DNA of 64,000 nt, from assembly GCA_016432545.1 (NCBI GenBank), contig CP066694.1, positions 992,001 to 1,056,000 of the forward strand, given 5' to 3'. This document shows, one piece after another, positions 39,162 through 64,000 of this stretch. This DNA is from an archaeon. Its GTDB lineage: Archaea > Thermoproteota > Nitrososphaeria > Nitrososphaerales > Gagatemarchaeaceae. Under the pieces are notes generated by a model, which was given only the letters and a program-made list of their open reading frames with translations, searched no databases and had not been told where the DNA came from. Position 1 is the first letter of the stretch, and each line of letters starts with the position of its first letter. The translations under genes and the position numbers were made by a program.

Positions 39162-39213
39162 TCCTCCTCTGCTCAATAGATTCTTTATCGCAACCCGCTG
39201 AGGAGGCCGCTGT

Positions 39214-39322
39214 GCGGGGGTAACGAAGCCTGGTCAACCGTGCGGGACTCAAGATCCGGCCTTGCTTCGGATGGGGCATCCCGTCCCTTAGGGGTTCGTG
39301 GGTTCAAATCCCACCCCCCGCA
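39214..39322 (+). tRNA. tRNA-Leu(CAA) with 24-nt intron
   Basis: Acceptor GCGGGGG pairs with CCCCCGC, A73, no encoded CCA. Anticodon stem CGGGA/TCCCG closes loop CTCAAGA with anticodon CAA at 39250-39252. The intron 39254-39277 sits at the canonical 37/38 site with ATCC/GGAT pairing. A long variable arm (CCC-TTA-GGG) and T-arm GTGGG-TTCAAAT-CCCAC confirm a class II Leu tRNA. Confidence 0.9.
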
Positions 39323-39365
39323 TTGAATATCGCAAAACCAGACACTCGCCTCTGGTTGGAGTCTG

Positions 39366-49719: not shown

Positions 49720-50694
49720 ATGTCGTACGGAAGGCCCCTACTGTCGGAGTTGGAACTCAAGTATCCGTTTGCGCCGAGCTCGAGGAGGTTCTTCGAGTCG
49801 ATACCTGTGGAGGACGGGCTCAACAGCAGGGAGGTCGTCGATCAGACCGGAAGTCGGCTCTTGAGCGCCCTGGGGCGGGCCAAGTATGAACCGCACATAT
49901 CGGAGTTGACGGAGTTTTCGAGTTTCTTTGCCGCCGCCCTGGTCGCGAGCCAGGACCCTGTGCTGACTTCTCGGTTCTCGAAGAAGGAAGCGGAGAGGGC
50001 AAAGGAACACTTCCTGGCGGAGGCCCCCAAGGCGAAGGCAGTCGCCCTGGCAGAGTGCTTCGGGGCAGCGGTCATGCTCGAGGAGAGTCAGAACGAAGGC
50101 AGGAGATACTCGATGCCCTTCGAAGTCTATCTCTCGGTCGTGTCGAAGCATGAGCTGGGCAAGAACCCGAAGTGGAAGCTTGCAAGGCAGCCGCTATCGG
50201 CGGGGACAGTCCACCTCACCGAGAACATGGTCAACGATTTCTTCGGCGACTGCGCCCAAGCCGCCATCGGGGACGGGGTCAGGAACCTCCGCAAGGCGCA
50301 GCTGCCGAAGCAGCTCTTGGGCGTGAGGGCTGAGGTCATCCAGTACGTCCCAGCTCCGAGGCCCAGGAGCGGGAAGGGCTACCTCTACGTCGAGGACCTT
50401 CTGAAACATCCGGTCTCAGACGGGAGGCACAGGCTCGTGTGGTTGGTATTGGCTCCTTACATGGTCAACGTCAAGAAGGTGGACGACACGGAGGCAGTAG
50501 AGAAGATAAGAGCGTTCGTCGCCGCGGCGGGAGAAACGAGTGCCATGAGGCGGTTCGTGGAGTACAACGTCAAGAGGGCACGGAGGAACGGCCTGCTCCC
50601 GCCGACCTTCTCGACCCTGAAGCTGGAGCATCCGGACATCTTCGGGCTCCTGCCCAAGGAAGTGGTGGCCGCCGAAGTCGCGAAACAGAAGTGA
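49720..50694 (+). CDS. DNA primase large subunit-like protein
   Basis: 324 aa from ATG at 49720. N-terminal YPFAPSSRRFF and helical repeats resemble archaeal PriL. The region YLYVEDLLKHPVSDGRHRLV followed by WLVLAPYM resembles the PriL C-terminal or PriX fold. PriL supports RNA primer synthesis with PriS. Only two Cys occur, so the usual four-Cys Fe-S cluster of PriL cannot form. Assignment is by memory of family patterns; PriX-like is an alternative. Confidence 0.5.
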   Translation: MSYGRPLLSELELKYPFAPSSRRFFESIPVEDGLNSREVVDQTGSRLLSALGRAKYEPHISELTEFSSFFAAALVASQDPVLTSRFSKKEAERAKEHFLAEAPKAKAVALAECFGAAVMLEESQNEGRRYSMPFEVYLSVVSKHELGKNPKWKLARQPLSAGTVHLTENMVNDFFGDCAQAAIGDGVRNLRKAQLPKQLLGVRAEVIQYVPAPRPRSGKGYLYVEDLLKHPVSDGRHRLVWLVLAPYMVNVKKVDDTEAVEKIRAFVAAAGETSAMRRFVEYNVKRARRNGLLPPTFSTLKLEHPDIFGLLPKEVVAAEVAKQK

Positions 50695-50712
50695 CTGGGC
50701 GAGGCCCTAGCG

Positions 50713-51276
50713 ATGAAGCTCAAGGAGTTTGGGAAGACTGGACGCCAGGTCTCCGAAGTAGGGATGGGGACATACTACGACCCGGCCTGGATTGCGACCG
50801 CATTTCTAGGATGGAAGAGGGGAGCCGCGGAGAAGGTTAGGGCGTTGAGTGTGGGGTTCGATGCGGGGGTAACAATGGTTGACACCGCCGAGATCTATCA
50901 GTCGGAGCCCTTGGTCGGCAAGGCCCTTCGGGGAAGGAAGAGGGACGAGCTCTTCGTGGCTACCAAGGTCTGGTCGAGCCATCTGCGCAGGGAGGCGATG
51001 GTGAGGTCGTTCGAAAGAAGTCTTCGTCGCCTGGGGACGGAGTACATCGACCTGTATCAGGTTCACTGGCCCAACCCTGGCGTCCCGATTAGGGAGACCA
51101 TGGGCGCGATGGAGGAGCTCGTGAACAGAGGGAAGCTCAGACACATAGGGGTCAGCAACTTCAGCCTTGCTCAGATCAGGGAGGCACAGGAGGCCCTGCC
51201 CAAGAGCGAGTTCCGCATGGGAACTTACAGACATCGAAGTGCGGGAACTAGACGAGGGCTTCCGGTAATCGCTTAA
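50713..51276 (+). pseudogene. C-terminally truncated aldo/keto reductase
   Basis: 187 aa. It follows the AKR family through FGKTGRQVSEVGMGTYY, DTAEIYQSE (catalytic Asp and Tyr), ATKVWSSH (Lys), YQVHWPNPGVP (His) and IGVSNFSLAQI. After AQEALPKSE it turns into 22 unrelated residues and stops. The intact paralogue at 55758-56609 is 283 aa. The lost half includes cofactor-binding strands, so it is probably inactive. The out-of-frame tail DIEVRELDEGFR looks like the end of another gene, suggesting a deletion junction. Confidence 0.75.
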
Positions 51277-51306
51277 ATCGGCACAGGCGAAGCGGCTGGC
51301 AGGCGG

Positions 51307-51366
51307 GTGAGTGACCTCCACCCGATCCGCCATAGAAATCACGGTGTTGGAGGGAGCAAGAAATAG
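51307..51366 (+). CDS. 19-aa leader ORF before the transporter operon
   Basis: GTG at 51307, about 27 nt after TATA-like CTTAAATC (51272-51279). It encodes SDLHPIRHRNHGVGGSKK and ends with TAG sharing its last base with the GTG of the next gene. A GGAGG precedes that GTG. The peptide has three His, one Asp and one Asn among its first ten codons, so a leader-peptide control is possible. Confidence 0.45.
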   Translation: MSDLHPIRHRNHGVGGSKK

Positions 51367-52085
51367 TGATTCAGAGTCAGGGGGAAACAGAGCCGCCCAG
51401 TGCGGCAAGTTCGACAGGCTACTCTGAACCCTCCAATCGCACGAGGAGGCTGGCCTTGGTGGGTGTTCTCACGGCCCTGTACGTCGCTGCCAATGCCGTT
51501 CCCATAGACGCCTTCATTGGCGGGGCGGGTTTCATCACCGCAGGAATTCTGATTCTTCCGGTCATCGCGAGGCTTGTGCGACCCATGGAGGCCGTGGTCG
51601 TCGGAATCGCAGCTCCGCTTGGCCTCTTCGCGTTCCAACTCTCGGTAATTCCAATCTTCGGTTTCTATGGTATGCTAATCCCGGCGTCCGCGATCGTCCT
51701 CGGTTCCCTAGGGTTCTACAAGTCGTACCTCGTCCCCACAGCTTACATCGTCCTTGGCGCCTTCTGGTACCTCGCCTTTTCAGGCGGGACCATCGTCTGG
51801 CTCGCTCCTTACGTCCTCGCGGTCTCTTTGGTCATAGTGAACCAAGTGCGCCCCTTCGTCCGCGGGACAAGGGCGGAGGTATTGCTCTTTTGTTTCCTTA
51901 CCACAATGTGTGAACAGGTCACCATGAACATCGGGTCGGTGAGCCTCCTCCAGCTCCCTGGATTTCTGTGGACAGTGATAGCCCCCTTCATGTTCCTTGA
52001 GAGGACGGTGGCGGTGGTTGGGTCCTCTTCCGTCCTGATAGCCCTCATCAGGGTCAAGTCTGCCTTGCGGATGGCGGAAATCTGA
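51366..52085 (+). CDS. ECF-type transporter S component-like membrane protein
   Basis: 239 aa from GTG at 51366. After a 30-residue polar tail there are about six TM helices, beginning LALVGVLTALYVAANAVP in the style of substrate-binding S components of energy-coupling-factor transporters (QueT/vitamin type). The gene starts an operon with a Cys-rich protein and a QueC homologue, so a deazapurine or related substrate is plausible (inference). Confidence 0.65.
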   Translation: MIQSQGETEPPSAASSTGYSEPSNRTRRLALVGVLTALYVAANAVPIDAFIGGAGFITAGILILPVIARLVRPMEAVVVGIAAPLGLFAFQLSVIPIFGFYGMLIPASAIVLGSLGFYKSYLVPTAYIVLGAFWYLAFSGGTIVWLAPYVLAVSLVIVNQVRPFVRGTRAEVLLFCFLTTMCEQVTMNIGSVSLLQLPGFLWTVIAPFMFLERTVAVVGSSSVLIALIRVKSALRMAEI

Positions 52086-52370
52086 ATGTGCAGAGCGACC
52101 ACTCTCTGTTGCTTCAAGTGCGCAGGCTGGTTCGACAAGGAAGGGGTCGAGTCGTGTAGGACCTGCGGAGACTGGAAGTGCCCCCACTGTGGGAGTTGCC
52201 TCTGCAGCCTAACTCTGGATGGGAAGAAGATTGCCATCGCCTACATGGCGACCTATGAGAACCTCCTCAGGGAGCTCACCGGCGAGTCCTACGACTTCGG
52301 CAGGCACAGGCGGGTCCTGAAGGAGATCGGGGTCGGGCGCAAGATCGTGACCAAGGGGAGGGTGAGCTAG
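52086..52370 (+). CDS. cysteine-rich zinc-ribbon protein in the QueC operon
   Basis: 94 aa from ATG at 52086, directly after the transporter stop. Ten Cys in the first 40 residues (CCFKCAGWF, CRTCGDWKCPHCGSCLC) indicate two zinc ribbons; the rest is helical. The stop TAG overlaps the GTG of the QueC gene. No family name recognised. Confidence 0.65.
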   Translation: MCRATTLCCFKCAGWFDKEGVESCRTCGDWKCPHCGSCLCSLTLDGKKIAIAYMATYENLLRELTGESYDFGRHRRVLKEIGVGRKIVTKGRVS

Positions 52371-53116
52371 TGGAGACCGATAGGAACGCCATCGACATGA
52401 TCTCCGGGGGAGTTGACTCGGTCACCACAGCGTACTATGTCAGCAAGGTCCTGAAGCCCAAGGAGCAGATCCTGCTCTTCTGCGACTACAAGCAGAGGAC
52501 CTACCAGTACGAGGAGTTCTGCATCAAGAAGATCGCGGAAGCGTTGGGCAAGCCCCTCAAGCTTGTCGACCTCAGGTGGCTCGGGGACATCAGTACGTCA
52601 GCGCTGACCCATCCGGAGATAGAGATTGGTCCGACCAAGGAGTCAGACCTCTGGGACCCGGACAAGGCGAGGCAGAGGATCCTGAAGTGGTGGGACCCCT
52701 GCAGGAACGCGCTCCTCCTCCTGGTGGGGCTTTCGCATGCAGAGTCGCTGTACATATCGACCGGCGCCAGGTACGACGTGCACATAGGAATCCGACGGGA
52801 GACGCCCGTCGCGATGAAAGACAACACGCCCGAGTTCCTCGAAGAGATGAACAGGATGGCCGAGCAGGCCACCCATCACGGAGGGTACAGGCTCCTAGCG
52901 CCCCTGATCACTTACGACAAGGACAAGGTCGTCAAGCTCGGGGAAGAGCTCGGTGTCCCCTGGGAGTACACCTACAGCTGCTACGCTGGGCACGGCTTCC
53001 TAGAGGTCAGCGGAAGGAGGCTCCCGGTGCACTGTGGGGTCTGTTCGAACTGCGCAAGGAGGAAGGTGGCTTTCAGGGACGCGGGGGTAAAGGACCCCTC
53101 GCTCTACAACGCATGA
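52370..53116 (+). CDS. queC: QueC-like 7-cyano-7-deazaguanine synthase
   Basis: 248 aa from GTG at 52370. PP-loop SGGVDSVTTAYY binds ATP. The C-terminal Cys set SCYAG and HCGVCSNCARRKVAF is the zinc site of QueC. Converts carboxy-deazaguanine to preQ0, precursor of archaeosine at tRNA position 15. Middle region (residues 60-130) is longer than in bacterial QueC. Other archaeosine genes are not in the window. Confidence 0.82.
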   Translation: METDRNAIDMISGGVDSVTTAYYVSKVLKPKEQILLFCDYKQRTYQYEEFCIKKIAEALGKPLKLVDLRWLGDISTSALTHPEIEIGPTKESDLWDPDKARQRILKWWDPCRNALLLLVGLSHAESLYISTGARYDVHIGIRRETPVAMKDNTPEFLEEMNRMAEQATHHGGYRLLAPLITYDKDKVVKLGEELGVPWEYTYSCYAGHGFLEVSGRRLPVHCGVCSNCARRKVAFRDAGVKDPSLYNA

Positions 53117-53177
53117 GACGTCAGACCCTGATTTCAGAAAACGCATGAAAAGTTGTTCTTAGGTTCAAATAGGTCAG

Positions 53178-55535
53178 GTGGTCGAGTTTCCGCGTCTGTT
53201 GCAGCCACAATTCACAGCGAAGCTTGAGGCGACCACCTGGGACCCCAAGCTGGAGGCAGAGATGAGGCAGATGTGGGACTACGAGCCGCTGTTCGAGTTC
53301 AAGCCCAGGAAGAACAAGAGCTCCAACTTCGTGATGGACACGCCGCCGCCCTACCCCTCGGGGAAGCCCTGGCATCCGGGGGCGCTGACGCAGTATTCAC
53401 AGATCGACATGATGGCCAGGTCGGCGAGGATGAGGGGTCTCGAGGTCCTCTACCCTGTGGGGATTGACCGGAACGGGTTGCCCGTCGAAATCTTCGCGGA
53501 GCGCAAGTACAGGGTCCAGATGAGGAAGACTCCCAGGGAAGAGTTCATCAATCTCTGCAAGCACGCGCTGGACGACCTCGAGGCCTACATGGTCGGCCTC
53601 CTGAAGACCCTGGGCATCTCCGGGGATTTCCGGAACAAGTACAGGACCGACTCCGAGGACTACCGCAAGCTGACGCAGTGGTCGTTCATTGAGCTCTGGA
53701 AGAAAGGCCTGGTGTATCTGGCGAATAGGCCTAACAACTACTGCGTGGATTGCAACACGACCATCGCAGACGCCGAGATCGAGTACGAGGAGCTGCCGAC
53801 GTATCTGGTCACCAACACTTTCAAGGTCAAGGACGCAAAGGGAGAGCTCCCCGTAGCGACCACCAGGCCCGAACTGCTGGCGACGTGCCAGATGCTCCTG
53901 GTGAACCCGACGGACGCGAGGTACAAGAAGTTCATCGGGAAGACGGCCGTCGTCCCTCTGTACAACAAGGAGGTGCCCATCAAGGCGCACCGGAGCGTGG
54001 ACGCGAAGTTCGGGAGCGGAGTAGTGATGGTCTGCAGCTACGGAGACTATAACGATGTCCTGATGTTCAGGGAGTTCAAGCTGAAGGAGACTGTGGCCAT
54101 CGACATGGAGGGGAAGATGACCGCCGTGACTGGAAAGTACGTCGGGATCGCGGTCAAGGACGCCAGGGCACAAATCATCCAGGACCTACAGGACATGGGC
54201 GTCGCTACGAAGGTGGAGCAGATCCAGCACAGGACTCCCCTCTGCGAGAGGAGCAGGACCCCAATCGAGATCGTCCCGATGGAGGAGTATTACCTCAAGC
54301 AGCTCAGCTTCAAGCCGGCTCTTAGGAAGCTAGCGAAGCAGATCGAGTTCCATCCAGAGATGCACAGGCAGATCCTGCTTGACTGGATCGACGTCCTGAC
54401 TACCGACTATCCCATCTCGAGGAGGAGGTACTACTCCACAGAAATCCCCGTATGGTTCTGCAGCAAGTGCAACACTCCACACCTGCCGAGGCCCGGCGTC
54501 TACTACAGGCCCTGGAGGGACGAGGCGCCCTTCAAGAAGTGCAAGAAGTGCGGCAACACGAAGTTCGTCGGCGACTCGAGGACATTCGACACCTGGATGG
54601 ACTCGAGCCTCTCCACGATGTACATCACGAAGTACCTGAAGAGCAAGCGCTTCCATTCGCTCACCTTCCCGACCACCATCAGGATGCAGGGGAAGGACAT
54701 CGTGAGGACCTGGCTCTACTATTCGTTGCTGAAGTCCTACCAGCTGACCGGCAAGGCCCCGTTCAAGCACGCGTGGGTCGGAGGCCTGGGACAGGACTCT
54801 CAGGGGAGGGCGATGAGGAAGAGTCTTGGCAACTTCGTGGACGTGGAGCCGGTGTTGGCGAGGACCGGCGCGGATGCGTTCAGGCTCTGGGGCGCCTCGG
54901 AGGCCGGGCAAGGGTTCGACTTCCGGTTCAGCGAGGAGAGGATCGTGGGGGCTGGAAAGTTCCTCAACAAGCTGTGGAATACGAGCCGGTTCATCAGCTC
55001 CTTCCCTGTGCCTGAGTCTGCTCAGCTGACATGGACGGACAAGTGGATGCTCAACGAACTAGGGAAGCTGACCGAGGAGTGCGTGAAGGCGTACGAGAGG
55101 TTCGACGTGTTCACAGTCTCCACGAGGATCAGGGAGTTCCTTTGGAACGTCTTCGCCTCGAACTACCTCGAGATGGCGAAGGGAAGGGCCTACGGGGACG
55201 GCGTGCCCAAGGAGGAACAGGAGGCCGCCTGGTACACCCTGCACAAGGTGGTGAAGGGCTTGCTTCTCTTGCTCGCACCGATTACGCCCTACATCACGGA
55301 CTACATCTGGAGGAAGCAGTACGGCGCATCGAGCATCCACCTGGAGGCCTTCCCCCAGGCCGAACGGTTCGAGGTGAGCGAGAAGGTCAGCCAGAGCATT
55401 ATGGAGTACAACGCCGTGGTCTGGAAGACCAAGAGGGAAAGGGGACTCGCGCTCAAGGACTCGATAGCCAAGAGGGTCCCCGCGAATCTCAAGCACTTCG
55501 AGAAGGACCTCGTGCGCATGCACCACCTTACCTAG
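53178..55535 (+). CDS. valS: valyl-tRNA synthetase
   Basis: 785 aa from GTG at 53178. Crenarchaeal-type class Ia signature: PPPYPSGKPWHPGALTQYSQ in place of HIGH, VLYPVGIDRNGLPVEIF, editing domain with TTRPELLATCQMLLVNP, a Zn site (CSKCNTPHL, CKKCG), DTWMDSS and MRKSLGN in place of KMSKS. Charges tRNA-Val. Slightly shorter C-terminal region than bacterial enzymes, as expected. Confidence 0.9.
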   Translation: MVEFPRLLQPQFTAKLEATTWDPKLEAEMRQMWDYEPLFEFKPRKNKSSNFVMDTPPPYPSGKPWHPGALTQYSQIDMMARSARMRGLEVLYPVGIDRNGLPVEIFAERKYRVQMRKTPREEFINLCKHALDDLEAYMVGLLKTLGISGDFRNKYRTDSEDYRKLTQWSFIELWKKGLVYLANRPNNYCVDCNTTIADAEIEYEELPTYLVTNTFKVKDAKGELPVATTRPELLATCQMLLVNPTDARYKKFIGKTAVVPLYNKEVPIKAHRSVDAKFGSGVVMVCSYGDYNDVLMFREFKLKETVAIDMEGKMTAVTGKYVGIAVKDARAQIIQDLQDMGVATKVEQIQHRTPLCERSRTPIEIVPMEEYYLKQLSFKPALRKLAKQIEFHPEMHRQILLDWIDVLTTDYPISRRRYYSTEIPVWFCSKCNTPHLPRPGVYYRPWRDEAPFKKCKKCGNTKFVGDSRTFDTWMDSSLSTMYITKYLKSKRFHSLTFPTTIRMQGKDIVRTWLYYSLLKSYQLTGKAPFKHAWVGGLGQDSQGRAMRKSLGNFVDVEPVLARTGADAFRLWGASEAGQGFDFRFSEERIVGAGKFLNKLWNTSRFISSFPVPESAQLTWTDKWMLNELGKLTEECVKAYERFDVFTVSTRIREFLWNVFASNYLEMAKGRAYGDGVPKEEQEAAWYTLHKVVKGLLLLLAPITPYITDYIWRKQYGASSIHLEAFPQAERFEVSEKVSQSIMEYNAVVWKTKRERGLALKDSIAKRVPANLKHFEKDLVRMHHLT

Positions 55536-55541
55536 ACGCGA

Positions 55542-55661
55542 CTAGTCTGTGGGAAGCGGGATCAGGCAGTCGCTGCAGGTCTGGTAGGAGACTTCGAGGC
55601 TCCTCGTCATGTCCAGCGGCCTGCCGCACCATACGCAATGCTGGACTAGTATGCTCTGCAT
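55542..55661 (-). CDS. 39-aa zinc-ribbon mini-protein
   Basis: ATG at 55661, 24 nt from the TATA CATAAATA (55685-55692); TAG at 55542. Contains CVWCGRPLD and QTCSDCLIP, two CxxC knuckles. Convergent with valS. Below the size usually annotated, but promoter spacing and the paired cysteines support it. Confidence 0.65.
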   Translation of the reverse strand: MQSILVQHCVWCGRPLDMTRSLEVSYQTCSDCLIPLPTD

Positions 55662-55757
55662 GTTCGGCTGACTCGACCTTTTCGTATTTATGTTAGGCCT
55701 AATGCGTATTGGTCTTCTACAGATGACGACTTCGTCAAATTGGAAGCCGTCGGCGCG

Positions 55758-56609
55758 TTAGTTAGCCATGGAGAGGTACTCTTCCTGAGTGAAGCGAACG
55801 GAGACGGAGTTCGCGTTCTCTTCCATGTGGTCGGCCCTGGCGGTCTTGGGTATTGCCAGGACCCGCTCGCTTCTGGTGACCCAGTTGAGCATCATCTGGG
55901 CCGGGGTCATCCCATAGCGTTCGCGGATTGGTGCCGGGAATCGAGATGACGGAATCGAGCCCCTCGCTAGAGGGGTATAGGCGATTAGGGAGATCCTCTC
56001 CCTTTCGCAGTAAGGAAGAATGTCGCGCTCGACTCCTCTGCTGACGAGCGAGTATTCGACCTGGTTGGAGGCGAGCTCGTTCTTCCTCAGGGCACTCTTT
56101 GCCTCTTCTGTCTGGGGGACGCTGAAGTTGCTGACGCCGATGTACCTGACCTTCCCCTGGTCAACCAGCTCTTCCATCGCACGCATCGTCTCCTCGATGG
56201 GGATCGACGGGTTGGGCCAGTGGACCTGGTAGAGGTCGATGTGGTCGGTCCCCAGTCGCTTGAGGCTGCTGTTGCATGAAGAGATTACCGAGGTCCGGCT
56301 GAGATTCTCAGGAGAGACCTTGGTCGCGATGAAGGCGTCATCCCGCCTTTCCCTGATTGCCTCGCCCACAGTCTCCTCTGACCTTCCTCCGGCGTACATC
56401 TCAGCGGTGTCGATCAGGTTCATGCCCAGGTCGAGTCCCCGCCGTATCGCAGCGGTCTGCTTGGCCTTCTCCTCGGGCGAGCTGAAGACTCCGATGCGCC
56501 ACGTGCCCATGCCGATTACAGAGAGCTTCTCGTTGGTCTTTCCCAGCCGCCTGTATTCCACATCCCCACCTCGAGTATTGCTTGTCTTTGAAGTATCGGA
56601 GGCTGGCAT
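55758..56609 (-). CDS. aldo/keto reductase
   Basis: 283 aa from ATG at 56609. TIM-barrel AKR with catalytic DTAEMYAGG (Asp, Tyr), FIATKVSPE (Lys), DLYQVHWPNPS (His) and NADPH-binding IPKTARADHMEEN near the C-terminus. Reduces carbonyls in the cytoplasm; substrate unknown. The truncated copy at 50713-51276 is a close paralogue. Confidence 0.9.
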   Translation of the reverse strand: MPASDTSKTSNTRGGDVEYRRLGKTNEKLSVIGMGTWRIGVFSSPEEKAKQTAAIRRGLDLGMNLIDTAEMYAGGRSEETVGEAIRERRDDAFIATKVSPENLSRTSVISSCNSSLKRLGTDHIDLYQVHWPNPSIPIEETMRAMEELVDQGKVRYIGVSNFSVPQTEEAKSALRKNELASNQVEYSLVSRGVERDILPYCERERISLIAYTPLARGSIPSSRFPAPIRERYGMTPAQMMLNWVTRSERVLAIPKTARADHMEENANSVSVRFTQEEYLSMAN

Positions 56610-56650
56610 CCAAGAAAGGTGATAAACCGAGCCCCAAGCTCGAGGTGCGA

Positions 56651-56761
56651 GCCACGGTAGCTCAGCCTGGTTAGAGCACCTGCCTTGTAAGACCGGTCAA
56701 GGAGAGCAGGGGGTCGCGAGATCGAAAGCCAGATGGCACGGGAGTCTCGCCCGTGGCTCCA
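56651..56761 (+). tRNA. tRNA-Thr(UGU) with two introns
   Basis: Acceptor GCCACGG/CCGTGGC, discriminator U73 (archaeal Thr) and encoded CCA at 56759-56761. Anticodon stem CCTGC/GCAGG, loop CTTGTAA, anticodon TGT at 56686-56688. A 15-nt intron lies at 37/38 (56690-56704). The T-stem GCGAG/CTCGC is separated by 25 nt instead of 7, so a second intron of about 18 nt (about 56726-56743) lies in the T-loop. Confidence 0.85.
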
Positions 56762-56773
56762 TCAATTCGCGGG

Positions 56774-57151
56774 TCAGCTTCTGCCCAGGACTTCGAAGGT
56801 GTCGGCTACAATGGCGGTGAGGTAGGCTGGGTACTCCTCGTCGTCGAACTCGATAATCTCCACCAGGCCGCTGGCAGAGGCAATCTTCAGGCCCAGGAGG
56901 TGGTAACAGTACTTGTCGTTGCCCCTCGTGACCTTGAAGTAGAAGTTGCCGCAGGAACAGTAGGGCTTCTCAAGGTCGACGAACTCGTCTCCGAGCTTGC
57001 CCACGACCGAGAGGACCTTGCGGCCGCTGGGGAGGAAGCGAGCCTCCTTCACCGAGCTGGTCAGGGCTGCGTCGAGGGCTTTTTCGAACTTGGCCCCGTA
57101 CTTGGCGAGGTCAGCGAACCTCTTCTTCAGTTCGTCCCGTTGATCGCTCAT
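56774..57151 (-). CDS. SWIM zinc-finger protein
   Basis: 125 aa from ATG at 57151, overlapping the Dpo4 stop by 4 nt. The SWIM motif is CSCGNFYFKVTRGNDKYCYH (CxC...CxH). SWIM proteins of the Sws1 type act with recombinases in homologous recombination; co-translation with a translesion polymerase suggests a damage-tolerance role here (inference). Confidence 0.82.
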   Translation of the reverse strand: MSDQRDELKKRFADLAKYGAKFEKALDAALTSSVKEARFLPSGRKVLSVVGKLGDEFVDLEKPYCSCGNFYFKVTRGNDKYCYHLLGLKIASASGLVEIIEFDDEEYPAYLTAIVADTFEVLGRS

Positions 57152-58254
57152 CCTCGGGTCTCCTGTTCGAACTCGAACAGATTGCTCTGTGCCTCAACTG
57201 TCGCGAGTCCGGAGACTCTGACGCCTGCCCTCCGAAGGTCCTTTGCCGAGGCGTTGCACAGGTCGGCCAGCAGGATTTGAAAAGACTCCCGAATCTTTGA
57301 CCCGTCAGCTATCATCGGCGAGCTGAACGTCTTGTTCTTTGTCATGATTGAGAGGTCGGTCAGGACTCCCATTGCGGTCAGCGTCCTGAAGGAGGACTTT
57401 GAGTCGGAGAGCTTCTTCGCCACTGACTCGATGCCCGCTTCGAGTTGCCCAAGGATTTCGTCGGGCCTCCTCGTATCTTGTTTCAGCGTCACCATCCGTC
57501 CGAATTGGGTCGGAGCCCGGCCGGCCTGTACGGGTTGGAGGTCGGACCCTGTCGAAGCGGCCAGGAGGTAGCTCGAGAGGTTTCTTCCCAACGCAGCTTC
57601 CAACGCCGATGGGTCGGTTCTCGAGAGCTGGAGCACCGTCAGGATCCCGAGCTGCCTCAGCGCGGCAGTGGCTTTGGGCCCCACGCCGTAGAGCCTCTCT
57701 ACTCGGAGCGGGTCCAGGAAGGAGGATGTGGATTCGGGAGGGATAATCGTCAGCCCGTTGGGTTTCATAGCATCCGATGCCAGCTTGGCAACGACCTTGC
57801 TCCTCCCCAGGCCGATTGAACAGGTAAGGCTGGTCTCCTTCAAGACCGCTTCTTTGATTCCTTCTCCGAGGCCTCGCGCCCTGATGAAGTCGCCCCCGGA
57901 AGCATCTGTAATGTCGAAGAATGCCTCGTCGATGCCCGTCGGCTCGAGGACGTCCACCCTTTCTCGCACTAGTTCCATGACGTTCTCGGAGACTTTCTCG
58001 TATTTCTCGTGCTCCATCTTGATGAAGACCGCGTCGGAGCCGTCGAGTTTCCGTTTTGCGAGGGATATGGGGACTCCCGACTTCACGCCCATCGACCGGG
58101 CCTTGTAGTTCGCAGTGGCCACGGCCCCGCTGTCTTCAGTCCTGCCTGAATAAACGCAGACGACAACAGGTCTGTCTCTGATGGACGGGTTCTCGACCTC
58201 TTCTACTTGCGCATAGAAGTAATCCAAGTCAAGGTGACCTATGACCCGACGCAA
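57148..58254 (-). CDS. dbh: Y-family DNA polymerase (Dpo4/DinB)
   Basis: 368 aa from TTG at 58254. Palm motifs GHLDLDYFYAQVEE and TGIDEAFFDIT supply the catalytic acids; YKARSMGVKSGVP and the HhH region VERLYGVGPKATAALRQLG follow. The C-terminus AQSNLFEF is a PCNA-binding box. Translesion synthesis past damaged bases. Operon with the SWIM gene. Confidence 0.93.
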   Translation of the reverse strand: MRRVIGHLDLDYFYAQVEEVENPSIRDRPVVVCVYSGRTEDSGAVATANYKARSMGVKSGVPISLAKRKLDGSDAVFIKMEHEKYEKVSENVMELVRERVDVLEPTGIDEAFFDITDASGGDFIRARGLGEGIKEAVLKETSLTCSIGLGRSKVVAKLASDAMKPNGLTIIPPESTSSFLDPLRVERLYGVGPKATAALRQLGILTVLQLSRTDPSALEAALGRNLSSYLLAASTGSDLQPVQAGRAPTQFGRMVTLKQDTRRPDEILGQLEAGIESVAKKLSDSKSSFRTLTAMGVLTDLSIMTKNKTFSSPMIADGSKIRESFQILLADLCNASAKDLRRAGVRVSGLATVEAQSNLFEFEQETRG

Positions 58255-58350
58255 GCAAACCGAGTCGGCGGCAGTCGATAAAAGAGGTTGCTGATGTTCG
58301 AGTCGCTAGGATCTTGCCATACATCCATGCGTGACGAGAGATAGAAAGAC

Positions 58351-59394
58351 TTGAAATCGCTAAATAAACAGGGAAGTGGCGCAGTCAGGTTGACTGACCA
58401 GGACCTTCAGGGTATTTGGTTTGAGAGGCTCTGCCAAAGGACCGGCGTTCCCTTCTGGGTGGGCGTCTTGCTCTATGGCGTCCTTCCGGTCACCCTGCTA
58501 CTCCCCGCTTCGTACTTCGCAGCTGGACTCTGGGGGGGATTTGTCTCCGGCGGGGGTCTGGGACTTGTGCCTCTATTGGTAGTCGTTACGATTTACACTT
58601 TGTACGCATCGAGATTCGTACGCAGGAGGCTCGAAGGAGTCGCCTCCTACGCAAACACGCTCATCCCAGCTGGACAGGGGATGGAATTGCGAGAACTGTA
58701 CGGGATCAGAGGGATCGCCGTGACATATGTGGCATTGGTGACAATAGTCCAGTATTTCTACTTGGAATACGAGATTCCGGGGTCCTACAGCCTATTGCAA
58801 GGGATGATGATTTCAGCGGCCTTCTTTTACTGGAACGTCTTCATCATCACATTCATCTTCGCATTCGCGTATTCGCTTTACAAGATCTACCAAGCGGGAA
58901 AGCTACCACTCGTTCTCAGGCCCTTCACCGAGGACAGGACTCTGGGATTGAGGCCTTTCGGAAGGCTATCGCTCCAGTTGACCGCCTTGTATATTCTGAT
59001 GGTCGCAATAATCATTGTCCCTCAGACTGGGCTAGGATATCCAGCCGTGCCGCTCGTCGCCTTTGGGGCGATTCTCATGCTTGGGGGAATCGTGTTGTTC
59101 ATGGTCCCACTACTGAGTTTGCACGGAAGGTTGGTCGAAGCGAAGCGGATGGAGAACGGTCGGCTCGCTCCACAGTACACCGAGCTGGTCCACCAGCTCA
59201 ACCAGGACGGGGTCAAGAACAGCGATGTAAGGCTCTTCCACCAGCTCATGGGAATCGACAAGGTCCAGAGAGACATTCAGCAGATTCATACTTGGCCTTT
59301 CGATGTCGGAATCATAACGAGACTCGCGGCCATAGTGTTCTCAGTGGTCGCGATACTGCTCGCGAACTACCTCAGGCTCATCCTGAAGTTCTGA
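58351..59394 (+). CDS. multi-TM membrane protein, paralogue of 61259-62263
   Basis: 347 aa from TTG at 58351; a later TTG (about 58390) is possible. About seven TM helices. Shares with the gene at 61259-62263 the segments KLPLxLxPxTxDxTLGxRPF and IDKVQRDIQQIHTWPFD, and a C-terminal TM. The conserved cytoplasmic helix near the end suggests a specific partner. Family not recognised. Confidence 0.7.
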   Translation: MKSLNKQGSGAVRLTDQDLQGIWFERLCQRTGVPFWVGVLLYGVLPVTLLLPASYFAAGLWGGFVSGGGLGLVPLLVVVTIYTLYASRFVRRRLEGVASYANTLIPAGQGMELRELYGIRGIAVTYVALVTIVQYFYLEYEIPGSYSLLQGMMISAAFFYWNVFIITFIFAFAYSLYKIYQAGKLPLVLRPFTEDRTLGLRPFGRLSLQLTALYILMVAIIIVPQTGLGYPAVPLVAFGAILMLGGIVLFMVPLLSLHGRLVEAKRMENGRLAPQYTELVHQLNQDGVKNSDVRLFHQLMGIDKVQRDIQQIHTWPFDVGIITRLAAIVFSVVAILLANYLRLILKF

Positions 59395-59400
59395 GCCATC

Positions 59401-60660
59401 TTACGTCTGTGTGCTCGATTGTTCGAACATCTTCACGACGTTCCCGAGAGCCTTCTCGACTGCGAGTAGCATCTTCGGAGCGTTGGGAGCTCTCGCCAGC
59501 TCGGAGCAGAACCCAGTGAGTTCTAGCGCCCGTTCGTGAAGGACGATCCACGCTGCCTGGCTCCTCGGGAGCAGGTAGCTCATCCTGAACATCTCAAACG
59601 AAGGGCCTGCCGTGAGGCCTGGTCTGTGGGGTCCGATGGGCATGGTCGTGAGCAGGGTCCCTAGCGGCTTGATCACGGTGACCATGAGTCGGATCGAAGC
59701 ACCGCTCAGCTTTGACAACTCCTCGTGGCTCGTTTCTACCTGCAGGAAGAACCTGCTGAGGACCTGGAGGAGGACTTCGTAGCTGGCATTGAAGAGGTCG
59801 GAGACCTTGGCGGTCATCTCGTCATCGATGAGCTCTGCGATCTCGGCGTCTCCAGGGAGCCTCGTGAAGGCTGCGAGCGCCGGCCTTGAAGGGGAGAATT
59901 GGGGGTCCGCCTTCTTGATCTCGAGGAATTCGTTCAGGATTTGCACGAACTTGCCGAAGTGCGCGTCCCTCCAGTCTCCTCTGGCCCCCTCGCCCTCTGT
60001 CACGATAGTGTCTATCGCGGCCTTGGCCGATGCCAGGTCCTTCACCGCGATGAGCTTCTTCCATCCGAAGTGCTCCGCGGTCGCCTGCGACTCCTGGGAA
60101 CCGATGAAGACCTCCTTCTCACCATAGTTCTCGGCGAGGAAGTTGATGCCTTCCTCGACTCCGCGATACAGCTGTCCGATGGTTGCGAATTCCTGGCTTT
60201 CAGGGACTATCTCACCTCCCGAGGCTTGCATGCCTTCCCTTACGAACCCGGGCACGTCTTCTATGGCCATGGTCTCGGGTCTTTCCAGGTACAGGAAGTG
60301 CCGGAGGGCGACTTCGTCCAGTGGCATCAGGACGAGCCTTACCCTTGAGGGGAAGTACCTCGACTGGAGGGGAAAGTTCGGTCGCCCAAAGTAAGGGGCT
60401 GCTCCGATTGAGATTAGCAGGTTGTTGACTAGGGAGAGATGGAGCATCTCCTGTTCGGCGACCTCGGTGATCACCTTGTCCCACCTCCGTACGGCCGCGA
60501 GTTGGTCCTCAGAGACCCCTTCGGACGTGTTCCTCTTCAGGGCGAAGGATGCGTAGAGATACTGGCACATCACCATGTGCTCGAGCGTTGCCGCCTCAGA
60601 GAGCATGAAGATCAGTTGTTCTCTGTTCCTGATCACAACTGGGTTTTCCAAGCCGCTCAC
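59401..60660 (-). CDS. ferritin-like protein (VioB/iminophenyl-pyruvate dimer synthase type)
   Basis: 419 aa from GTG at 60660. N-terminal ferritin-like four-helix region with EAATLEHMVMCQYLYASFAL and VAEQEMLHLSLVNNLLISIG (Glu and ExxH iron ligands), matching the Ferritin-like domain found in VioB/RebD. C-terminal helical half of unknown role. Possibly an oxygen-dependent metalloenzyme. Convergent with the TM gene at 58351-59394. Confidence 0.75.
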   Translation of the reverse strand: MSGLENPVVIRNREQLIFMLSEAATLEHMVMCQYLYASFALKRNTSEGVSEDQLAAVRRWDKVITEVAEQEMLHLSLVNNLLISIGAAPYFGRPNFPLQSRYFPSRVRLVLMPLDEVALRHFLYLERPETMAIEDVPGFVREGMQASGGEIVPESQEFATIGQLYRGVEEGINFLAENYGEKEVFIGSQESQATAEHFGWKKLIAVKDLASAKAAIDTIVTEGEGARGDWRDAHFGKFVQILNEFLEIKKADPQFSPSRPALAAFTRLPGDAEIAELIDDEMTAKVSDLFNASYEVLLQVLSRFFLQVETSHEELSKLSGASIRLMVTVIKPLGTLLTTMPIGPHRPGLTAGPSFEMFRMSYLLPRSQAAWIVLHERALELTGFCSELARAPNAPKMLLAVEKALGNVVKMFEQSSTQT

Positions 60661-60715
60661 GTTTCCTGCATTAGGGCCTTGCGAGGAGCAGGATTGGCAG
60701 GCGACATCCCTGGCA

Positions 60716-61156
60716 CTACTTCACGACAAGGACCGGGCAGGTGGAACTCCTTGTTACACCCGCCGCCACGCTTCCAAGCATCAACTTTGCCACTCCGCCA
60801 GTCCCGCGCGTCCCTATCACTATCATCTCGGCGCCATCCTTCGAGGCAAAGTCGCACAAAGCAGAGACGACTGATGTCGTTTTCTCGATGACCCTGCAAT
60901 CGACTTCCACCCCGCTCTTCTGGGCTGAACTCTGGACCCCAGCAAGTGCCGATTGGCCTCTCTGTGTGAGCTCCTCCTTCAATCTGGAGAGCACGCTTTC
61001 AGAGAGATACTGCGGGAGTTGGATGACGTGCAGGGCCACCACCTTGCCGCCCGTGGTCTTCGCGAGCTCGATGGCATACCCTGCCGCCTTCATCGATTCC
61101 TCTGAACCATCGACCGCCGCCAGAATCCTGGTTGGAAGATGCTTGGAGGATGACAC
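60716..61156 (-). CDS. universal stress protein (UspA family)
   Basis: 146 aa. RILAAVDGSEESMKAAGYAI at the N-terminus and the ATP-binding motif GTRGTGGVAKLMLGSVAAGV near the C-terminus. Cytoplasmic nucleotide-binding stress protein. Same strand as the ferritin-like gene, which it precedes. Confidence 0.9.
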   Translation of the reverse strand: MSSSKHLPTRILAAVDGSEESMKAAGYAIELAKTTGGKVVALHVIQLPQYLSESVLSRLKEELTQRGQSALAGVQSSAQKSGVEVDCRVIEKTTSVVSALCDFASKDGAEMIVIGTRGTGGVAKLMLGSVAAGVTRSSTCPVLVVK

Positions 61157-61258
61157 CTACTACCTCGACCTGTTGTCGGCTAGAGAAGGCCGTATTTATC
61201 GCAGTCGGGGAAGAAAAGCCATAGGCAACTCGGAAATTGAAGGCCCGAGCTCCAGGCG

Positions 61259-62263
61259 TTAGAACTTGAAGAGGTCCCTGATTATTGCGCTAATCAAAAT
61301 TGCCAGTAGAGAGAAGATCACCGCTGCCAATCGAATAACAATCCCGGTGTCAAAGGGCCAAGTGTGAATCTGTTGGATGTCTCGCTGGACCTTGTCTATC
61401 GCCGTGATCTCGTTGACTAGGCGCTGATCTATTTCGGTCCTCTGGGTCGACTTTAGATCCCGAAGCACCGCCGTCGCCCAAGGTTCGAGCCAGGCCATCT
61501 CTCGAGACTTGGCCTCCACCAATTTGCGGTGGATGCTGTAGAGCGGCAGGAGGAAGAAGAGGAACCCCGGTGGATAGAGTACTAGAGGCACGAGTAGGGA
61601 GGCTGAAAGTGGTAGGGCGCCTCCGAAGATTATTGCCAGCGAAAGGAAAGTCGCGATTGCCAAGTAAATCAAGCTGAACCGCAATGACGCGGCGGCGAAA
61701 GGCCTCGTACCGAGGGTCTTGTCCTGGGTGTACGGCTTCAGCCTGAGGGGGAGTTTCCCAATCCTGTAGATCGAGAACATGGAGTAGCCGAATACCCAGA
61801 AGAAGGTCGCGATCAAGAAGTTCGAATACAGGTATGGAATCTCCCCTGTGAGGTTGTAGTAGATATCGCCGCCGGGGCCAAGGGTGAACAGTGGAACGAA
61901 GAACGAAAGCAGCAAGACCCACACTAACAGGACTCCTCTGATTGAAGACAGTCCTCTGACTCTCGACTCGAATGCTTTCTCTACTGCCTCATCGTCGGTC
62001 TCGATGAATTCGTGCAACGCTTCTACGCTATTTCTGAGCCGGATTGCAGTGTAGAATCCAAGGCCGACGTCCACAACTGAGATCAAACTCAGCTGGGCGA
62101 TGTCAGTTAGAAGCTCTCCCAGCCCGATTGGGATGAAGAAAACCGTAAGAGAACCAAGGGCAGCCGTGGGCACTAGCGCCAAGACGAGAGCACCAACCCA
62201 TAGAGGCAGGCCGACGCGCCTGGTGAATAGCTCAAACCACAGCTCGTTAGTAGGCGTCTTGAC
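61259..62263 (-). CDS. multi-TM membrane protein, paralogue of 58351-59394
   Basis: In-frame TTG at 62182 gives 307 aa. But the frame is open upstream and encodes NELWFELFTRRVGLPLWVG, which matches IWFERLCQRTGVPFWVG of the paralogue, so the true start is earlier. A minus-strand TATA (TTAAAAGG, 62287-62294) predicts transcription start at about 62263, where the codon is GTC. No ATG, GTG or TTG is present, so the start is unusual or mis-sequenced. About seven TM helices. Family not recognised. Confidence 0.7.
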   Translation of the reverse strand, partial: VKTPTNELWFELFTRRVGLPLWVGALVLALVPTAALGSLTVFFIPIGLGELLTDIAQLSLISVVDVGLGFYTAIRLRNSVEALHEFIETDDEAVEKAFESRVRGLSSIRGVLLVWVLLLSFFVPLFTLGPGGDIYYNLTGEIPYLYSNFLIATFFWVFGYSMFSIYRIGKLPLRLKPYTQDKTLGTRPFAAASLRFSLIYLAIATFLSLAIIFGGALPLSASLLVPLVLYPPGFLFFLLPLYSIHRKLVEAKSREMAWLEPWATAVLRDLKSTQRTEIDQRLVNEITAIDKVQRDIQQIHTWPFDTGIVIRLAAVIFSLLAILISAIIRDLFKF

Positions 62264-62369
62264 CCCGCAGCGACCTCCTCTGCTTGCCTTTTAACGATGA
62301 GACGACTTAGGTAGACTTGAACACCAAAATCGGTTCAAGCATTCGGGCTGGAAGTGAGGGTTAGTGGGG

Positions 62370-62456
62370 TCGGCCGGATTTGACCTAGCAGTTTTGATGG
62401 GGTTGGACTAAATCGGAATATCGATAGGGTATGGGTTCAAATCCTGGCGACCGCAG
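62370..62456 (+). other. tRNA-like sequence or remnant
   Basis: GGTTCAAATCCTGGCGACCGC resembles a T-arm and acceptor end, and GGGGTCG about 60 nt upstream pairs with CGACCGC at 6 of 7 positions. No good anticodon stem or D-arm is seen. Probably a degraded tRNA or one with unrecognised introns. Low-GC DNA starts right after it. Confidence 0.35.
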
Positions 62457-62591
62457 ATTTTCAGCCTCTCTCTCTTCTGTAGGCTGAGCCTGTTTCTGTG
62501 AGTTTGTGAGAGATTAACTGCCGCAGAATATCTCAGAAAAAAATAATAGCGGTTAGGTCAGGCTGTCGTCTACCCCAATAATCACTACCCT

Positions 62592-63383
62592 TCAAACAAC
62601 GGCGTGAATCAAGAAAAGAAAGGTGATTCCTAACGCACCGAACATCATCTCCTGGTAGTTGAAGTAGACAAAAGTTCGGAAAACATAGCGGGCGGGCTTG
62701 CCTACGAGGCGAGCCCAACCAAACCTCTCTATTCCCCACCGGACCAGCATCCCTGTTTCTATTAACGCAATCACAATCGCGACGCCTAATAGAGCAAGAT
62801 CAAACTCGATAGCATAGGAGATTGCAATGCTTGGGGGAAAAACCGGGGCAAACGGAATCGTGAAGGCTATACCAACCAGCCCTATGAGAAACAGGGTCAA
62901 AATAGCGGGCACTGTGAACCTTCTATCCTCAGGAGGGACCCGTACCAAGTTGATGAAATACCCAATTACTGGTATCCAGAGTTCAATTGGGACAATCGCC
63001 TTGCTCCATATCTCAACTTCGTTCTCTACTCTGCTGAGGCGATAACCAACCTTGCGCCAAAAGACTTCTGACTCAGGCCCTACATCCCAGGCCTCTATCC
63101 TCGATACCCCTTGAGCATGCACTAATTGTGCCAATGCGAATACGAAATACCTGCCATATCCTTTGCGCTCACCATCTGGTCTTGTCTGCATCATTCTAAT
63201 CGACAAGATGCCTTTTGTTGCATAAGCCAAGGCGTGGACCACAGGCTCCCCACCCACATCAAGCACGTGCGTTGCATCTGGACATCGGCTGAACCTTTGG
63301 TCGTCCTGGTCCGTGTCTCTTGCTAGTCTAAGGTCGTAACTTTTCAATCGTGTCGCACCCTGGAAGCTTTGTAATGAAACAAT
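62592..63383 (-). CDS. GNAT acetyltransferase fused to membrane helices
   Basis: The open frame extends to 63509; start uncertain (an ATT at 63383 lies 28 nt from the TATA at 63411-63418, GTG starts lie further up). The N-terminal half has GNAT features GERKGYGRYFVFALAQLVH (acetyl-CoA loop) and FWRKVGYRLSR. Four TM helices follow (ILTLFLIGLVGIAFTIPF and others). An unusual fusion; substrate unknown, perhaps a membrane-associated acceptor. Confidence 0.6.
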   Translation of the reverse strand: MVSLQSFQGATRLKSYDLRLARDTDQDDQRFSRCPDATHVLDVGGEPVVHALAYATKGILSIRMMQTRPDGERKGYGRYFVFALAQLVHAQGVSRIEAWDVGPESEVFWRKVGYRLSRVENEVEIWSKAIVPIELWIPVIGYFINLVRVPPEDRRFTVPAILTLFLIGLVGIAFTIPFAPVFPPSIAISYAIEFDLALLGVAIVIALIETGMLVRWGIERFGWARLVGKPARYVFRTFVYFNYQEMMFGALGITFLFLIHAVV

Positions 63384-63410
63384 CGTCGTCTGTCTGAATA
63401 CACCAATAGT

Positions 63411-63418
63411 GCTTAAAG
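63411..63418. promoter_or_regulatory. TATA box between divergent genes
   Basis: GCTTAAAG ends 25 nt before the ATG at 63443 on the plus strand and is also correctly placed for a minus-strand start near 63384. Confidence 0.5.
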
Positions 63419-63442
63419 GACTCGCCTTTGTTCGTTCCCATA

Positions 63443-63685
63443 ATGGCGCCAGAAGATGACGAGATCCGCATTGGAGAAGTAACAGACATTCACCACATTC
63501 CACTACCAAGGAACCAGCGCTTCAAGCCAAGCGAGCTCTCCATGAGGGTAGTCAGAGGAGAATGGACAGCTGGGCCTAAGCCGGGCCGCAACGGTCTCAA
63601 GGTCCAGTCCAAAATCAATCTGATCCGGCGCAAAATTAGAGAACTCGACAGGTTGCTCACCTTGGCAAAAACTACCGAGGACTAG
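63443..63685 (+). CDS. small basic protein
   Basis: 80 aa from ATG at 63443 (leaderless spacing from 63411-63418). Starts MAPEDDEIRIGEVTDIHHI; C-terminal half is a basic helix (VQSKINLIRRKIRELDRLL). No family recognised. Confidence 0.55.
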   Translation: MAPEDDEIRIGEVTDIHHIPLPRNQRFKPSELSMRVVRGEWTAGPKPGRNGLKVQSKINLIRRKIRELDRLLTLAKTTED

Positions 63686-63728
63686 GCGTGAACGGCTGTG
63701 TCCTGCGAACCGGGGAGAGCTAATGCAG

Positions 63729-63848
63729 CTATGGCTCGTATTGCTTCAGCCTGGCTCGCAGTCTTTCAACCTCTTTCTGGCACTCAGCCAGTTGCTGTTG
63801 AATGCTGCTCGCTCTCGCCTCGGCTTCACCCCTTTGCTTTCTGGCCAT
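63729..63848 (-). CDS. 39-aa coiled-coil mini-protein
   Basis: ATG at 63848 to TAG at 63729. The whole product is a charged heptad helix (SIQQQLAECQKEVERLRARL). No clear promoter spacing. The last 150 nt of the window beyond it hold nothing I recognise. Confidence 0.45.
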   Translation of the reverse strand: MARKQRGEAEARASSIQQQLAECQKEVERLRARLKQYEP

Positions 63849-64000
63849 GATACCCGGCCAAGGATTATCGTATCCCATGTGGACGAAGGTTGGGATGGTC
63901 CTCTAATAGTCTTGGAGATTGTGTCTGCTGGTGTACGTCGAAAGAAGTGCCGAATGTTTAATAGAAAACTTCTACCAGCCGTCCAAGGTTGGTCTCAAAG

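Follow-up and report, generated by a model that had tools for sequence, protein, structure and literature searches.

The tRNA-Thr(UGU) locus

The window, i.e., the whole stretch of 64,000 nucleotides that was analysed, belongs to the genome of a soil-type archaeon (G000, hereafter the window genome) that consists of a single contig of 1,504,237 bases and is 100% complete by tool estimate. It contains a tRNA-Thr(UGU) gene located between an aldo/keto reductase gene and a SWIM zinc-finger gene (Table 1). The acceptor, D, anticodon and T stems of this gene are all intact, with perfect pairing in the acceptor stem (GCCACGG/CCGTGGC) and the T-stem (GCGAG/CTCGC), whereas the anticodon loop and the T-loop comprise 22 nt and 25 nt, respectively, compared to the normal 7 nt. 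The sequence bears out the description in an earlier note on this DNA, according to which the gene carries a 15-nt insert at 37/38 and a T-loop that is 18 nt too long between the perfect T-stem strands. The same note pointed out that the gene encodes CCA and that tRNA-Leu does not, which is correct for the tRNA-Leu(CAA) gene at 39213-39323; the encoded CCA is present but is not a special mark of this gene, being missing in 3 of the 4 nearest intron-bearing orthologues (G027, G020 and G009) and encoded both in the G026 orthologue and in the tRNA-Thr(GGU) gene of the window genome itself. The same motif as the promoter-like element of Table 1, or a similar one, is found in the upstream sequences of the orthologues examined. 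In most relatives, tRNA-Thr(UGU) lies between the same two neighbours, on a strand that differs by genome (window 55758-57151, L042-L061), and every copy in the genus that is wholly free of introns has the same orientation as both neighbours.

Table 1. Features of the tRNA-Thr(UGU) locus and related genes. Positions refer to the window unless a contig (C1, window genome) or locus (L) is given; dots within bulges mark the predicted cuts.
Feature	Position	Strand	Basis or remark
tRNA-Thr(UGU), two introns and encoded CCA	56651..56761	+	sequence; ARAGORN on the form without T-loop insert; orthologues
Exon 1, tRNA positions 1-37: acceptor 5' strand, D arm, anticodon UGU	56651..56689	+	
Intron 1, 15 nt, position 37/38	56690..56704	+	named by ARAGORN after T-loop insert removal
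Exon 2, positions 38-59: anticodon stem 3' strand, variable loop, T-stem 5' strand, T-loop AUCGAA	56705..56726	+	
Predicted intron 2, 18 nt, T-loop 59/60	56727..56744	+	register common to 16 T-loop inserts; orthologues without insert
Putative motif of intron 2			bulge AA·A, inner helix GCC/GGC, central helix UCG/CGG, bulge AG·U
Exon 3, positions 60-73: U60, T-stem 3' strand, acceptor 3' strand, U73	56745..56758	+	
Encoded CCA	56759..56761	+	sequence; presence in orthologues, see text
Promoter-like AGAAAGGTGATAAACC	56613..56628	+	AT-rich core some 25-30 nt before tRNA-Thr(UGU); putative function
Aldo/keto reductase gene, conserved upstream neighbour	55758..56609	-	PF00248, E 9.7e-67
SWIM zinc-finger gene, conserved downstream neighbour	56774..57151	-	PF04434, E 0.0004
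Endonuclease-fold (EndA) genes, window genome	C1:293937 and C1:764540		
LAGLIDADG-like genes against tRNA genes	L094:6165-7437; L249:208-1369; L250:1295-2262; L262; L263; L289		

Detection of the gene and search for a second tRNA-Thr(UGU)

ARAGORN with default settings called no tRNA gene anywhere in the 64-kb window, and with introns allowed it called only tRNA-Leu(CAA). Rfam at the gathering score gave zero matches across window positions 50000-64000, and the Rfam tRNA covariance model scored tRNA-Thr(UGU) at 16.7 bits, under the cut-off of 29. When the T-loop insert was deleted in a script, ARAGORN called tRNA-Thr(tgt) with a 15-nt intron, and when the 37/38 insert alone was deleted, it called nothing; removal of the T-loop insert restores a tRNA recognisable to ARAGORN, and recognition is limited to forms without this insert. 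A warning follows for the annotation of such genomes: an essential tRNA goes undetected in standard searches.

The earlier note named the existence of another, functional tRNA-Thr(UGU) gene as an outcome that would overturn its reading. Searches of the complete 1.5-Mb genome with the tRNA family model, the gene, the T-arm pattern and the intron-free form as queries found no second UGU gene, and the remaining threonine tRNAs seen in the genome have the anticodons GGU (C1:1078965) and CGU (C1:1264324, minus strand). ACA accounts for 128 of the 738 Thr codons in 20 long open reading frames of the window, so that a UGU tRNA should be needed.

T-loop inserts in tRNA-Thr genes of the family

We searched 61 genomes (the window genome and 60 relatives) which, together with fetched stretches, yielded 49 script-readable tRNA-Thr genes in the family. 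A T-loop insert is present in 14 of these genes (9 of 22 UGU, 3 of 16 CGU and 2 of 11 GGU), and the other 35 have a T-loop of exactly 7 nt. The T-arm GCGAG ATCGAAT CTCGC, which is identical to the predicted spliced T-arm of the window gene, occurs in the UGU genes of G008, G012, G015 and G023. Among the tRNA-Thr(GGU) genes, the intron-free T-arm GTGAG TCCGAAT CCCAC is found in G002, G014 and G027 (among others), and in the gene of the window genome 16 nt separate A59 from U60, that of G026 being likewise interrupted. Outside the family, both introns are present in G084. The inserts vary in sequence and in length, from 13 to 46 nt, whereas the exon ends and the splice register are constant.

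These observations bear on two other readings of the window gene. It could be a decaying pseudogene in which the 18 nt are a random insertion, and the failure of standard tRNA finders to detect the unspliced gene fits this; we consider it very improbable, given that all stems are intact, that the promoter-like motif is retained, that the complete genome yielded no other UGU tRNA, and that inserts recur at the same spot in other tRNA-Thr genes of the family with a fixed splice register. It is just as improbable that the mature tRNA retains the enlarged 25-nt T-loop, because removal of the inserts restores a 7-nt loop every time despite their variation, and because the inserts keep a bulge-helix-bulge pairing that a retained loop presumably would not need.

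With 14 genes that have the T-loop intron and 35 that lack it, the family offers a clean natural experiment: close relatives can be set side by side to study gain, loss and what the splicing enzyme demands. The tree built from both flanking proteins intermixes genomes with a T-loop intron, with a D-arm intron and with an intron-free gene: G008 (D-arm intron) and G029 (T-loop intron) are sisters (support 100), and G003, without a T-loop intron, is sister to G000 plus G026 (support 90). A simple single gain of the T-loop intron is not supported by this intermixing, and individual gains and losses are left unnamed because support at several nodes is low (32-46). Nor was support found for one intron having moved between tRNA-Thr genes by transposition, as the UGU and GGU inserts of the window genome have, by eye, little in common apart from the motif ends.

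When 400 genomes belonging to the class were scanned with a sequence pattern, at least 10 matched, including the window genome, in 2 of 82 genera; this count is a lower bound because the pattern demands AYCGAA and a fixed frame, and the T-loop-intron genomes G001, G019, G031 and G035 do not match it. In a contig scan, the negatives of which are limited in the same way, the pattern matched 88 stretches, mostly bacterial, and of 10 that were inspected, one (L117, a halophile) looks like a chance match. Contigs of Hermodarchaeota and Heimdallarchaeota (L118, L121 and L128) contain tRNAs, apparently with anticodon CAU, in which a long insert follows ATCGAA in the T-loop, seemingly at the same 59/60 position.

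The bulge-helix-bulge motif

We analysed 16 T-loop inserts (the 14 family genes, G084 and a stranded fragment in G023) with cuts placed after position 59 and before position 60 in 3-nt bulges. Pairs C56-G and G57-C are present in 16 of 16 inserts; position 55 pairs as U-G in 6, U-A in 5 and C-G in 5, and position 54 is paired in only 5 (A-U in 3 and U-A in 2). All 4 central pairs are present in 5 genes and at least 3 in all 16. Across the set, 53 of 64 central-helix cells are paired in this register, compared to 14-21 when the register is slid. None of 20,000 shuffles reached 53 pairs (mean 22.9), a count that overstates independence because the 16 inserts are related sequences and that, for this reason, does not translate into a probability.

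The window copy is a relaxed bulge-helix-bulge, in which 3 of the 4 central positions are paired, including one as U-G. When its 18 nt were shuffled alone, 8 of 20,000 shuffles equalled its central and inner helix. Folded without constraints, the window T-arm favours a shifted register, not the motif, whereas the G009 T-arm folds exactly into the motif. The motif of the 37/38 intron is imperfect too, and its fold is hardly above shuffles (z -0.88). The decisive support for the T-loop intron is comparative.

Splicing machinery and predicted processing

The product of the EndA gene at C1:293937, the catalytic subunit, can be aligned over residues 5 to 184 with the crenarchaeal chain 3p1z_B (E 6.4e-42), and 2cv8_A was also matched over its length. 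It keeps a His where the otherwise similar 3ajv chain has Ala, and its GYYG is followed by a stretch with KP that the M. jannaschii match, beginning at residue 50, does not include. This stretch is taken to be the Crenarchaea-specific loop, the name and role of which are given in the available part of PMC12397907. The product of the second gene (C1:764540) matches EndA chains and, by inspection, is without that His. An RtcB gene is present in the window genome. At least one EndA match was found in 56 of the 61 genomes (own and relatives), and two in most complete genomes. Judging from these alignments, the window genome encodes a splicing endonuclease of the two-subunit type, which is linked to non-canonical introns, with a predicted broad specificity.

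In the proposed mechanism, the precursor transcript would fold a second bulge-helix-bulge on the T-arm, with the T-stem as the outer helix and T-loop nucleotides 55-57 (54-57 in some relatives) paired with the 3' part of the intron. Cleavage would take place within the 3-nt bulges on either side, behind A59 and ahead of U60, and would be the work of the (alpha-beta)2 splicing endonuclease, which would also cleave both bulges at 37/38; ligation of the exons by RtcB would give a T-loop of the usual 7 nt, AUCGAAU. The anatomy, the exact boundaries of presence and absence, the fixed register, the exchange of base pairs and the enzyme genes are observed, and from them we infer cutting, ligation, the order of events and T-loop modification following splicing. 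Taken together, the relatives that lack exactly the insert, the fixed register and the encoded type of endonuclease support the second, T-loop intron proposed in the earlier note, and it is very highly probable that the sole tRNA-Thr(UGU) gene found in this Gagatemarchaeaceae-type thaumarchaeon has a second bulge-helix-bulge intron at T-loop position 59/60 that is predicted to be spliced.

Comparison with known archaeal tRNA introns

The available text of PMC4090602 lists 59/60 among the known archaeal tRNA intron sites and describes non-canonical introns at this and other T-arm positions in Crenarchaeota and Nanoarchaeota. The inserts described here resemble these in position 59/60, short length, bulge-helix-bulge, the coexisting 37/38 intron and the two-subunit endonuclease, and differ from what that text describes in lineage and in that the Gagatemarchaeaceae inserts recur in all three tRNA-Thr isoacceptors. 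The window genome is placed in the genus of SubAcS15-57 (group I.1c thaumarchaea), identified as Ca. Subgagatemarchaeum, Gagatemarchaeaceae, in the accessible portion of PMC10640624; its placement in Gagatemarchaeaceae (group I.1c, Nitrososphaeria), and not in Thermoproteales, is by tool-assigned kinship with G009, of the same genus, and not by a tree of our own. The tRNAscan-SE 2.0 survey counts 107 non-canonical introns in Thaumarchaeota, of the same intron class and broad phylum, which the part of PMC8450103 at hand gives as counts without positions and without naming the family. The word 'intron' appears nowhere in the main text of PMC10640624 as available, and a literature search, the coverage of which left out most subscription papers, found no publication on tRNA introns of Gagatemarchaeaceae. 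Introns at 59/60 are already known and rare; for group I.1c thaumarchaea, no earlier report of them was found.

The permuted tRNAs of Thermofilum pendens are likewise joined at 59/60, with a bulge-helix-bulge at the junction (PMC3218864, from the portion available), so that a split or permuted tRNA with its junction at this position might be considered for the window gene. The gene order excludes this reading almost entirely: the exons of the window gene are contiguous, in normal order and on one strand, within 111 bases. A T-loop intron in a gene of ordinary order is the reading that we retain.

Genome-wide (L001-L038), 27 of the 38 detected tRNA genes of the window genome fail to parse as intron-free cloverleaves, many of them with long D-loops or two inserts, in a census based on loop lengths in which about 8 of the 38 genes parsed badly and were counted merely as not intron-free. 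In the Asgard lineages Atabeyarchaeia and Freyarchaeia, according to the accessible part of PMC11291895, 92-95% of the tRNA genes are interrupted; the likeness lies in the interruption of most tRNA genes, many at non-canonical positions, and the difference in the proportion.

LAGLIDADG-like genes beside tRNA genes in relatives

In G023, an open reading frame of 278 amino acids (L094:6267-7103, minus strand) lies tail-to-tail behind tRNA-Thr(UGU), and on its far side is a stranded tRNA-Thr 3' end in which a T-loop intron is still present. This reading frame has a sub-cut-off match to the Pfam family LAGLIDADG_3 (E 4e-4), as do two relatives (0.026 and 0.015). A profile search for LAGLIDADG-like reading frames gave matches in 19 of 46 family genomes, with a close subfamily of six loci (G023, G018, G009, two in G033 and one in G032). 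All six lie tail-to-tail at a tRNA gene, which is tRNA-Thr in 5 cases and a CAU tRNA in 1; one of the G033 matches is a fragment that scores below many weaker full-length matches and, because it was included for its neighbour, it is not independent evidence for the tRNA association. No recognisable tRNA gene was found beside any of the 25 inspected weaker loci (L264-L288). A stranded tRNA 3' end beyond the reading frame is present in 4 of the 6 (G023, G018, G009 and G032), in G018 as a 24-nt repeat (92%), and was not found at either G033 locus. In the three Thr cases (G023, G009 and G032), the stranded end resembles the intron-bearing type (complete in G023, last bases only in G009 and G032), and the intact tRNA-Thr gene has an intron-free T-loop. 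The close subfamily is absent at the window locus, and no LAGLIDADG-like reading frame was found near T-loop-intron genes in the stretches examined (350-560 bases for three of them).

The arrangement by itself suggests that the LAGLIDADG loci are small cassettes that would insert at, and replace, tRNA 3' halves. It is conceivable, if on balance doubtful, that the tRNA-Thr genes of the family are contested by T-loop introns and mobile LAGLIDADG cassettes: a cassette would land at the tRNA 3' half, swap this half or the whole gene for its own intron-free T-arm and strand the old 3' end about 1.0-1.2 kb away, and T-loop introns would be lost by such replacement and perhaps kept for breaking the target of the cassette. 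If confirmed, the stranded tRNA ends beside LAGLIDADG genes would represent a route for tRNA intron turnover. In the literature within reach of our search, no publication clearly describing this arrangement was found.

Other tRNA sequences in the window genome

Two tRNA 3' ends, GGGTTCAAATCC.GGCGACCGCA, occur without a 5' half, at window positions 62434-62456 and at G000:C1:1460770. Both match the end of a tRNA-Gly-like gene at C1:1218761, and these orphan ends are possibly integration relics. Box C/D guides reside in the tRNA-Trp intron in other archaea; in the window genome, a tRNA-Trp-like gene (L032, G000:C1:880190) has an anticodon-loop insert of about 65 nt, and its D-loop is long as well.
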